64,000 nt of DNA from Clostridiales bacterium (GTDB lineage: Bacteria; Bacillota; Clostridia; Christensenellales; Aristaeellaceae). The position numbers were made by a program, and so were the translations under genes. The notes beneath the pieces are model-generated. The model did not search any database. It saw only the letters and a list, made by a program, of their open reading frames with translations, and was not told where the DNA came from. Shown piece by piece: positions 5,812 to 26,053 of the stretch (the stretch's first letter is position 1; every line of letters begins with the position of its first letter). The DNA lies in NCBI GenBank assembly GCA_015056145.1, contig SVGY01000001.1, positions 372,001-436,000 on the forward strand, in the 5' to 3' direction.

Positions 5812-6076
5812 CCCGAAAAGCGCCTTTTGATGATGAACCATCGTTTTCATCGCAAAAGGCTTTTTTGTTGCCCGTTTTTCCCTTGCCATCTCAAAATGCG
5901 CTTCTTTTGGTTCTTTTCTTCTCAGAAGAAAAGAACGTCCCCCACCCGAAAAGCGTCTTTTGATGATGAACCATCGCTTTCATCGCAAAAGGCTTTTTTG
6001 TTGCCCGTTTTTCCCTTGCCATCTCAAAATGCGCTTCTTTTGGTTCTTTTCTTCTCAGAAGAAAAGAACGTCCCCC
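5812..6076. repeat. Two tandem copies of a 133-bp intergenic repeat
   Basis: Copy 1 (5812-5943) and copy 2 (5945-6076) differ at two internal positions (C5823/T5956 and T5844/C5977). Each unit holds two hairpins. The first pairs GCCTTTTG with CAAAAGGC and ends in TTTTTT (about 5820-5868). The second is a 27-nt near-perfect palindrome with 13-bp arms (5910-5936 and 6043-6069). No start codon with a ribosome site and no convincing reading frame was seen. This 374-bp gap between the transketolase and TPM genes is filled almost wholly by these repeats and the preceding terminator; the convergent TPM gene ends at 6122. Confidence 0.9.
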
Positions 6077-6121
6077 CGGTTTTCCAGGAGGACGAAGTAA
6101 TATATTTTCGCAAAACAATGC

Positions 6122-13236: not shown

Positions 13237-13286
13237 GACTTCAACCGTTACCAATATAAAAACCATACACTAACGGAGGGATTCTT

Positions 13287-14507
13287 ATGGATCGCTATGC
13301 AAGCAAAAAATCTACCGCCCGTCTGCGCTTCCTGCGCCCCGACGGCACGCCTGCAGCCAATCAGTCTATCGCTTTTTCCCAGACCAGCCATGAGTTCCTC
13401 TTCGGCTGCGGCGCTTTTGATGCCGTGGAGCTGATGAAGGATACTCTGCCGGACAACATCCGCACTTTGCTCAGCGAGCGCATGGAAAACTGGTTTGAGC
13501 TGTTCAACTTCGGAACCCTGCCCTTCTACTGGGGACGGTATCAGCCCGAAGAAAACGGCCCCACCACTACCCCTTACCTGATGAAGGCCGCCAAGTGGCT
13601 GGAAGAAAAGGGCTGCGCCGTGAAGGGCCACCCCCTGTGCTGGCACACCGCCTGCGCCAACTGGCTGATGAACTACTCCAATGAGGAAATCCTCAAGAAG
13701 CAGATCGAACGCATCCACACCGACGTGACCCATTTCAAGGGCACCATCGACATGTGGGACGTGATCAACGAAGTGGTCATCATGCCCGTGTTTGACAAGT
13801 ACGACAACGCCATCACCCGCATCTGCCGTGATATGGGCCGCATCAAGCTGGTGAAGGAAGTGTTTGCCGCCGCCAAGGAAAGCAACCCCGGCGCGACTCT
13901 GCTCATCAACGACTTCAACACTTCCATGGCCTACGAAGTGCTCATCGACGCTCTGCTCTGTGCGGATGTGCCGATCTCCGTCATCGGCATTCAGTCCCAC
14001 CAGCATCAGGGCTTCTGGGGCCTGGAAAAGCTCAACGAGGTACTGGAGCGGTTCAGCCGTTTCGGCCTGCCCATCCACTTCACCGAGAACACCTTCGTTT
14101 CCGGCGATCTGATGCCCCCTCACATCGTGGACCTGAACGACTGGCAGGTGCCCGAGTGGCCCTCCACGCCCGAAGGCGAAGAGCGTCAGGCACAGAACGT
14201 TGTGGACATGTATTCCACCCTGTTCGCCCATCCTCTGGTAGAAGCCATCACCACCTGGGATCCTGCCGATGGCGCATGGCTGGGCGCCCCCAGCGGCTTC
14301 ATGCGCAAGGACAACTCCAAGAAGCCTGCCTTCCACGCCCTGCATGACCTGATCCACAAGGATTGGAGCACCAACGTGACCCTGACCACCGATGCCGACG
14401 GTTATGTGGACCTGACCGGCTTCCGTGGCGGTTACGAAGCCAAGCTCGACGGCAGCACCGTCAGCTTCCAGCTCAAGGGCAGCGATGCACAGGAACTGAC
14501 CTTCTGA
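13287..14507 (+). CDS. Glycoside hydrolase family 10 endo-1,4-beta-xylanase, intracellular
   Basis: 406-aa xylan-degrading enzyme. The GH10 barrel shows KGHPLCWH (residues 113-120), WDVINEV with the acid/base Glu at about 162, SHQH (about 237-240) and HFTENTF with the nucleophile Glu at about 267, then TTWDPADGAWLGAPSGF. The first 30 residues carry no signal peptide, so the enzyme probably acts on imported xylo-oligosaccharides. The last 40 residues form a small beta extension (DADGYVDLTGFRGGYEAKLDGS). GGAGG precedes the ATG, and a near-consensus promoter lies at 13208-13236. It is a single-gene unit ending in the terminator that carries element copy A. Confidence 0.92.
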   Translation: MDRYASKKSTARLRFLRPDGTPAANQSIAFSQTSHEFLFGCGAFDAVELMKDTLPDNIRTLLSERMENWFELFNFGTLPFYWGRYQPEENGPTTTPYLMKAAKWLEEKGCAVKGHPLCWHTACANWLMNYSNEEILKKQIERIHTDVTHFKGTIDMWDVINEVVIMPVFDKYDNAITRICRDMGRIKLVKEVFAAAKESNPGATLLINDFNTSMAYEVLIDALLCADVPISVIGIQSHQHQGFWGLEKLNEVLERFSRFGLPIHFTENTFVSGDLMPPHIVDLNDWQVPEWPSTPEGEERQAQNVVDMYSTLFAHPLVEAITTWDPADGAWLGAPSGFMRKDNSKKPAFHALHDLIHKDWSTNVTLTTDADGYVDLTGFRGGYEAKLDGSTVSFQLKGSDAQELTF

Positions 14508-14532: not shown

Positions 14533-14555
14533 AACCACCCGCATAGCGGGTGGTT
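14533..14555 (+). terminator. GH10 terminator hairpin, proximal duplicate
   Basis: AACCACCCGC / GCGGGTGGTT stem-loop directly after the GH10 stop. An exact second copy stands at 14720-14742. The T-rich stretch of the original terminator follows only the distal copy. Confidence 0.85.
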
Positions 14556-14719
14556 CTGGCTGTCAAAAAATTCGCAGGGTGCAGGGGGATCATCCCCCTG
14601 CCGGGTGTGGGCAGAGCCCACATTCCTTGTGCCGCAGCACTTTCAAGAAAGCACAGCGAGCACCGAAGGTGCAAGATTTGCGGCTTTGACTGACAAGAAT
14701 GAGGTTTTTCGACAAGCTG
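14556..14719 (+). mobile_element. 164-bp terminator-targeting element, copy A
   Basis: Begins CTGGCTGTCAAAAAA and ends GTTTTTCGACAAGCTG, giving imperfect terminal inverted repeats (the complement of the 3' end is CAGCTTGTCGAAAAAC). Internal hairpins: GCAGGGGGAT/ATCCCCCTGC at 14581-14601, GTGGGC/GCCCAC at 14607-14621 and GCACC/GGTGC near 14660-14672. It encodes no plausible protein. It is flanked by exact 23-bp duplicates of a terminator stem-loop. Copy B at 25863-26026 has the same length and differs at two bases. I read it as a non-autonomous transposable element; the transposase is not in this window. It fills most of the 326-bp gap between the GH10 gene and the next gene. Confidence 0.75.
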
Positions 14720-14742
14720 AACCACCCGCATAGCGGGTGGTT
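14720..14742 (+). terminator. GH10 terminator hairpin, distal duplicate with T-tract
   Basis: Exact repeat of 14533-14555, followed by TTCTGTTTCTC. It is the likely original terminator end. Confidence 0.8.
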
Positions 14743-14782: not shown

Positions 14783-14830
14783 AATACAGCCGGAAAGCAC
14801 AACACATCGTGCTTTCCGGCTGTATTTTTT
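14783..14830. terminator. Perfect 18-bp terminator stem-loop
   Basis: AATACAGCCGGAAAGCAC (14783-14800) pairs fully with 14809-14826 around an 8-nt loop; a T-tract follows on the plus strand to 14830. It lies between the convergent GH10 gene and the secreted protein gene ending at 14834 and may serve both. Confidence 0.8.
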
Positions 14831-25835: not shown

Positions 25836-25862
25836 CGGCGGAGTTTCTTCATCCCTCCGCCA
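25836..25862 (-). terminator. Nudix-gene terminator hairpin, distal duplicate with T-tract
   Basis: GGCGGAG/CTCCGCC stem. On the minus strand it is followed by GTTCTTTTTTTG, the T-tract of the original terminator. It is an exact 27-bp repeat of 26027-26053. Confidence 0.8.
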
Positions 25863-26026
25863 CTGGCTGTCAAAAAATGCGCAGGGTGCAGGGGGATCAT
25901 CCCCCTGCCGGGTGTGGGCAGAGCCCACATTCCTTGTGCCGCAGCACTTTCAAGAAAGCACAGCGAGCACCGAAGGTGCAAGATTTGCGGCTTTGACTGA
26001 CAAGAATGAGGTTTTTCCACAAGCTG
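25863..26026 (-). mobile_element. 164-bp terminator-targeting element, copy B
   Basis: Same length as copy A (14556-14719) with two substitutions (near 25879 and 26018). Flanked by exact 27-bp duplicates of a terminator stem-loop unrelated in sequence to that of copy A. Relative to the transcription unit it terminates, it is inserted in the opposite orientation to copy A. It accounts for most of the 320-bp space between the ppk1 start and the Nudix stop. The strand is given relative to the Nudix gene; the sequence reads CTGGCTGTC... on the plus strand. Confidence 0.75.
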
Positions 26027-26053
26027 CGGCGGAGTTTCTTCATCCCTCCGCCA
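26027..26053 (-). terminator. Nudix-gene hairpin, proximal duplicate overlapping the stop codon
   Basis: The duplicated stem-loop contains the last codons and stop (26040-26042) of the Nudix gene, so the terminator stem begins inside the coding sequence. Confidence 0.75.

Follow-up and report, generated by a model that had tools for sequence, protein, structure and literature searches.

A 164-bp MITE between duplicated terminator hairpins in a Clostridiales genome, and its likely mobilisation by an IS1182-type transposase

The window considered here is the whole 64,000-nucleotide stretch of Clostridiales contig SVGY01000001.1 presented above. Behind a gene for a GH10 glycoside hydrolase (PF00331, E 8.3e-32), a 164-bp sequence stands between two exact copies of what should be a single terminator hairpin, and a T-rich tail follows only the distal copy. 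How does an insertion come to lie between two complete hairpins, and what moves it? A sequence-only reading of the window had proposed a non-autonomous, MITE-like element mobilised by a transposase that targets terminator hairpins and leaves long, variable target duplications, and it named IS1182 and IS1634 relatives as families with such habits. The features concerned are the following.

13260-14507, plus strand: GH10 glycoside hydrolase (PF00331), upstream host gene of copy A; open frame with a putative start
14533-14555, no strand: proximal copy of the GH10 terminator hairpin, 23 bp, target duplication without T-tract; exact repeat of 14720-14742
14556-14719, plus strand: MITE copy A, 164 bp, one among 74 genome copies
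14556-14570, plus strand: left terminal inverted repeat of copy A, CTGGCTGTCAAAAAA; compare the IS1182-family ends
14581-14601, no strand: internal stem-loop 1 of the element body (helix 3); 4 of 9 pairs changed on both sides across congeners
14606-14622, no strand: internal stem-loop 2 of the element body (inner part of helix 4); compensatory changes
14705-14719, minus strand: right terminal inverted repeat of copy A, CAGCTTGTCGAAAAA on that strand
14720-14742, no strand: distal copy of the GH10 terminator hairpin, then the T-rich tail; scored as an intrinsic terminator on the plus strand
25836-25862, no strand: left hairpin copy at copy B, 27 bp; exact repeat of 26027-26053
25863-26026, plus strand: MITE copy B, 164 bp, two differences from copy A
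26027-26053, no strand: right hairpin copy at copy B, 27 bp, then ATTTTTG

Re-reading the same coordinates bore out the description of the locus. The exact 23-bp hairpins with their one-sided T-tract and the GH10 identity of the upstream gene stand as described; the twin element has the same length and mismatches at element positions 17 and 156; the ends, called imperfect inverted repeats, agree at 11 of 15 bases; and no protein is encoded, the longest ORF wholly within the element being 41 aa and longer ones only running through it. The sequence-only reading missed that copy B is bracketed too, by a hairpin repeat unlike that of copy A in sequence. Thirteen exact direct repeats are listed in the window (at least 14 bp, within 3 kb), and two of them flank the element. 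Another of the listed repeats, 18178/18679, is capable of weak folding. At 5824-6077 lies a 133-bp direct tandem repeat (exact stretches of 20 and 99 bp at a distance of 133). A strong second terminator-like hairpin of 18 pairs (14783-14826), free of any element, adjoins the filled GH10 terminator.

BLAST on fetched regions found 74 distinct copies in the genome, counting matches of at least about 60 bases. A 23-base pattern with at most two mismatches also gave 74 matches, two of which read one palindrome, and a whole-element search gave 45 places, with 40 of 75 first-look candidates scored. Short, present in many copies, without a transposase gene and with inverted-repeat ends, the element is MITE-like, as had been proposed. 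In 61 of the 74 copies a flush direct repeat consisting of the whole hairpin is present on both sides (within 6 nt of both element ends, score at least 12), while none of 498 mismatched flank pairs used as a control reaches a score of 12 (maximum 8). Most copies thus carry the duplication that the transposition model expected, and the repeats, 18–39 bp long and varying in sequence from site to site, agree with the long, variable duplications of terminator hairpins suggested from the first locus. An outer T-tract is seen in one or both directions at 52 of the 61 repeats (21 plus, 17 minus, 14 both); it is weak at the other nine, eight of which sit in arrays. Among the 13 copies without a scored repeat, L002, L085, the first unit of L038, and L079 have, by eye, one and the same hairpin left and right, with small gaps, and the remainder are truncated, degenerate or rearranged. 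Outside cellular genomes, an exact 36-base element pattern had no match in viral contigs and an element search had none in a phage collection.

The geometry of the duplication was examined on 51 distinct repeats without end slack and with a score of at least 18. They measure 18–39 bp (mean 27.2), and their length tracks the span of the hairpin (r 0.91), part of this correlation being built in since the span is measured inside the repeat. When each repeat is folded alone, the number of unpaired bases is equal at the two edges in 46 of 51 cases, namely none in 26, one in 17, two in 2 and three in 1. Folding with 12-nt flanks lengthens the pairing outward at most sites through the A- and T-tracts. 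The joins hence lie at the base of the strong stem, which we call the foot, and not at the last possible pair. Across the dyad of 41 distinct host sites, Watson–Crick complementarity is 0.90–1.0 at positions 1–6 inside the edge, 0.63 at the edge, 0.61 and 0.71 (mostly A–T) at the first two outer positions, and 0.27–0.51 from the third position outward. No common sequence was seen at the host sites beyond their A-rich and T-rich feet.

The ends of the MITE are of the CAGNCTGTCNAAAAA type and match those of IS1182-family insertion sequences. The family end type CAGNCTGTCRAAAAA is present in the older MITE copies, which start with CAGGCTGTCAAAAA or CAGACTGTCAAAAAA; the young consensus has CTG instead of CAG at its left end. 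The ends of L134, an element with a 479-aa IS1182 transposase, belong to this type too: CAGCCTGTCAAAAAAGG at one and CAGCTTGTCAAAGAAGCC, read on the opposite strand, at the other. What IS1182-family elements do to their targets was seen in two overlapping sets. A whole-hairpin repeat flanks 6 of 20 IS1182 stretches from other genomes of the host family (L134, L135, L136, L140, L143 and L145), and these stretches share at least one locus with a scan of species genomes (L195 is the locus of L135). Among the best 80 of 539 confirmed IS1182-family loci in that scan, 42 have a flanking direct repeat (score at least 14), and all 42 repeats are hairpins, 18–64 bp long and scoring 18–64, against 4 of 400 controls with a maximum of 16. 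They come from hosts such as Claveliimonas bilis, Chakrabartyella piscis, Acetobacterium wieringae, Gemmiger sp. An120, Oscillibacter valericigenes and Romboutsia timonensis, and 40 of them belong to the 59 loci whose two flanks each exceed 250 bp. All five transposases examined from hairpin-duplicating elements pass the NCBIfam model NF033551 (410–477 bits, cut-off 270). The MITE thus does what its autonomous relatives do, taking a hairpin as target and duplicating all of it, and of the two families named in the sequence-only reading IS1182 is supported. Near one transposase fragment of this family (L149, genome G064), repeats GTTTTCCCCAC...GTGGGGGTGAACCG extend over about 1.5 kb in a CRISPR-array-like manner.

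Within the genus itself, a first look at eight IS1182 loci found the hairpin repeat only at L092/L100 (the locus also recorded as L155), the others having no repeat or being cut by contig ends. In this congener, G002, a frameshifted IS1182-type transposase lies in a unit bracketed by an exact 40-bp hairpin repeat, and the first piece of the transposase alone scores 222.8 bits on the IS1182 model, below the cut-off of 270. Within that one repeat, the unit (L100:2946-5548, equal to L092:446-3048) holds the transposase and a 191-aa cargo, which a second hairpin separates from the IS; the cargo protein had no Pfam or NCBIfam match.

Not every IS1182-family locus follows the rule. No repeat was found at 38 of the best 80 of 539 loci, 19 of which are cut by a contig end. 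The 19 with two flanks comprise eight with a hairpin at each end but of unlike sequence, six with a hairpin at the one end found, one mixed case (L219) and four where no end was found. Unlike hairpins abutting the two ends were noted at L155, L165, L175, L190, L201, L206, L207, L209 and L284, the last on a complete Exiguobacterium plasmid. Recombination between copies, adjacent deletion or assembly error could explain such loci, many of which are in metagenome assemblies, and these may connect copies incorrectly. Such loci are not what the simple model gives, and they count against our preferred explanation. Nine phage and plasmid IS1182 stretches gave six hairpin repeats (two of these being one insertion in sister records), one pair of unlike hairpins, that at L284, and two cases with neither.

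A filled and an empty site are available for one autonomous IS1182-family element. At the lysin end, the phages Javan87 and Javan90 have identical sequence. In Javan87 one 26-bp hairpin occurs twice, on either side of a 1538-bp element of the family; in Javan90 it occurs once and the element is absent. The Javan90 stretch is contained exactly in the joined Javan87 flanks when one hairpin copy is kept. The two records differ in length by 1564 bp, which is 1538 + 26. An empty site with a single hairpin, as the sequence-only reading expected, therefore exists for a relative of the MITE. For the MITE sites themselves, reading the terminators behind congeneric orthologues of three flanking genes gives a weak comparison: in G016, the closest congener, the orthologues of the GH10 gene (89% identity) and the FMN-dehydrogenase gene (88%) each precede a hairpin that differs in sequence, with no element core behind either. 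In G001, the hairpin behind the GH10 orthologue is followed by sequence like the middle of the element and adjoins an element match (L240), possibly a separate insertion at the same GH10 terminator.

We read these observations, that is the copies, their repeats and the symmetry of these, the ends, the arrays described below, the like outcome in IS1182-family elements and the filled and empty pair, as very probably the product of a MITE with IS1182-family ends that is moved in trans by a hairpin-targeting DDE transposase of IS1182 type, with the length of the duplication set by the hairpin. Such a transposase would recognise its target by the shape of a stem-loop and not by sequence, most often at an intrinsic terminator. 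It would join both element ends symmetrically at the base of the stem, one per strand at the 5' foot, presumably of an extruded cruciform or hairpin. Gap repair would then copy the entire hairpin and leave the element between two complete copies, so that the duplication (18–39 bp here) would follow the hairpin and not a fixed stagger. The outer hairpin copy would keep the T-tract, and so the terminator should remain and termination be preserved after insertion. The locations of the MITE fit the earlier idea of a safe-site strategy, with its hypothetical benefit to the host. Every insertion would also turn one hairpin into two and permit arrays in which hairpins and elements alternate.

No IS1182 transposase was found in the host genome with Pfam PF05598, PF13751 or a 308-aa transposase piece as queries, nor at 40 of the 62 contig ends of the assembly, which is 94% complete. 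Within the reach of these searches a hidden autonomous copy was set aside. The lack of one counts against our preferred explanation, and we therefore infer the mobiliser of the MITE, an element absent from the genome or missed. Two sequences recur at contig ends (L322, L332, L334 and L336; L324, L338 and L355); they are probably other insertion sequences that broke the assembly, and neither matched the IS1182 queries.

The same searches, made with IS1182 queries only, leave some room for a transposase of another kind (another DDE family, a tyrosine or an HUH enzyme) whose MITE would resemble IS1182 elements at its ends by convergence. We consider this improbable, since the MITE and the IS1182-family elements have in common not only the type of end but also the unusual duplication of a whole hairpin; HUH transposons, moreover, are not known to make terminal inverted repeats or a target duplication. 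Still less credible, to the point where we give it hardly any weight, is the notion that recombination or segmental duplication spread hairpin and element as a single repeat unit, in which case the hairpins would be part of the element and no target duplications at all. The tandem arrays of hairpin and element at eight sites could be taken that way, as could the one hairpin that two arrays on the same contig have in common, but the copies kept carry 51 distinct repeats, and hairpins that differ from site to site largely refute a fixed unit. The like arrangement at an IS1182-family element, moreover, has an exact empty site with one hairpin.

How the arrays grew is a closer matter. Eight sites hold two to four elements each, 22 copies in total, with single hairpins between them. 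Growth mainly by recombination between the duplicated hairpins or elements, instead of repeated insertion into regenerated targets, is a real possibility, if one we would bet against. In its favour, the units within L070 and within L075 have older subfamily variants in common per array. Against it, neighbours differ at element position 156 in three of the eight arrays (L007, L025 and L080), as expected if each element came separately into a renewed hairpin; this position, column 158 of the alignment, has the minor base in 21 of 71 aligned copies. The mean distance within arrays, 7.0, is also close to the 7.7 between sites, and the other five arrays do not decide. Two arrays on contig C8, L038 and L073, lie about 22 kb apart and share the hairpin AGGCCTTCCGTTTTTCGGGAAGGCCT, although the outer hairpins of L073 differ; this common hairpin suggests recombination between copies.

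Element matches occur in 16 of 60 genomes searched, the host genome included, and in 12 of the 16 other genomes of the genus. A first look flagged 11 of 27 loci, 8 of which remained once L049, L063 and L066 had been recognised as other repeats; the final set holds 11 full-length relatives of 160–165 bp from six congeners, all bounded by hairpin repeats (11 of 18 rows, leaving out three L052 rows, which are other repeats, and four from the host genome). Their alignment with copy A shows changes on both sides, with pairing kept, at 12 of 48 predicted pairs, against an average of 7.0 in shuffles, none of 500 reaching 12, and at most 4 in slid structures, though relatedness can inflate such counts; the number of extra pair types does not exceed that in shuffles (193 of 500). 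Folding is better than in shuffled sequences for both strands (z –3.2 and –4.5).

The element could be primarily a functional structured RNA, a 3'-UTR or small RNA, that is mobile by chance and whose spread into terminators was selected for expression. The compensatory changes and the folding speak for this, as does a weak likeness to the Rfam family RF02937 (Clostridiales-2 RNA), which matches window positions 14567-14673 with 24.4 bits, below the gathering threshold of 58.6. Weak matches to the same family occur in 11 of 17 genus genomes, with a best score of 32.5 bits, but none of the 17 reaches the threshold, so that this known RNA family was rejected as an identification and kept as a lead; RF02937 might itself be part of a related mobile element. 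Between co-directional genes 21 copies lie in sense and 14 in antisense, a bias too weak to argue convincingly for an RNA function, and the structure could equally be under selection at the DNA level. We regard a primarily RNA role as unlikely, and with both strands folding well and so little orientation bias, no choice was made between a role of the structure in DNA and in RNA. A broader proposal joins these threads to the preferred IS1182 explanation: a clade of DDE transposases would gauge its target by structure, with the two element ends joined to both feet of a cruciform or DNA stem-loop, so that the exact hairpin is duplicated and the target renewed. The 160–165-bp body of the MITE, maintained through compensatory changes in congeners, would itself be under selection as folded nucleic acid, whether to signal transposition or to act as 3'-UTR RNA transcribed from occupied terminators. 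We put it forward tentatively, at somewhat less than an even chance.

The target duplications of DDE transposases are generally taken to have a fixed length. In the present case it is the target's shape that the length follows, at 18–39 bp for the MITE and 18–64 bp for IS1182-family loci (among the best 80 of 539). A doubled terminator in a genome can thus be the scar of an insertion, and terminator hairpins would suit genome engineering as natural, mostly harmless landing sites. ISfinder records variable direct repeats of about 0–60 bp for the IS1182 family, and its curators may already know the duplicating mode. In the open-licence literature, seen mostly as titles and the starts of abstracts, we found no report of whole-hairpin duplication at scale, of a MITE from the IS1182 family, or of a rule that equates duplication and hairpin. 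What appears to be new is hairpin duplication on a large scale, together with the MITE, its arrays (up to four elements) and its covarying body.

In CRISPR adaptation an insert enters between the ends of a repeat, the repeat is duplicated, and arrays of repeat, insert and repeat result. The likeness to our arrays is in this one respect, and no membership is claimed: unlike in CRISPR adaptation, no Cas1 is implicated here, the repeats differ at every site and the insert is always one element. With bacterial MITEs as described in the available part of a review (PMC10969869), the element shares short length, lack of coding capacity, high copy number, terminal inverted repeats, stable secondary structure and intergenic position, but its target duplication is a whole hairpin of variable length; that part of the review names neither IS1182 nor hairpin targets for MITEs. 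The closest known systems are IS1272 and TnSha1 of Staphylococcus, which belong to the IS1182 family and, according to the accessible text of two papers (PMC4923244, PMC5678879), target hairpins, terminators included, without sequence specificity; three of seven TnSha1 sites are terminators by the figure legend. The same portions of text cite Siguier et al. 2015 for some IS1182 members that target palindromes, given there without detailed data. Transposase family, hairpin target and inverted-repeat ends are common to these elements and ours, and the TnSha1 cargo gene between the IS and a second end resembles the arrangement at L092/L100. Hairpin targeting by the IS1182 family is therefore already published, for IS1272, with deletion of the stem-loop and no target duplication; in the text seen of PMC5678879, duplication of the whole stem-loop is drawn only as a hypothetical possible pathway b. 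The MITE and its relatives depart from IS1272 and TnSha1 in duplicating the stem-loop, and instead of an IS1272-type replacement we find a stem-loop on both sides of 61 of 74 copies. Taken with IS1272, the IS1182 family shows two opposite outcomes at the same hairpin feet, deletion in IS1272 and duplication here, which makes the cruciform model directly testable.
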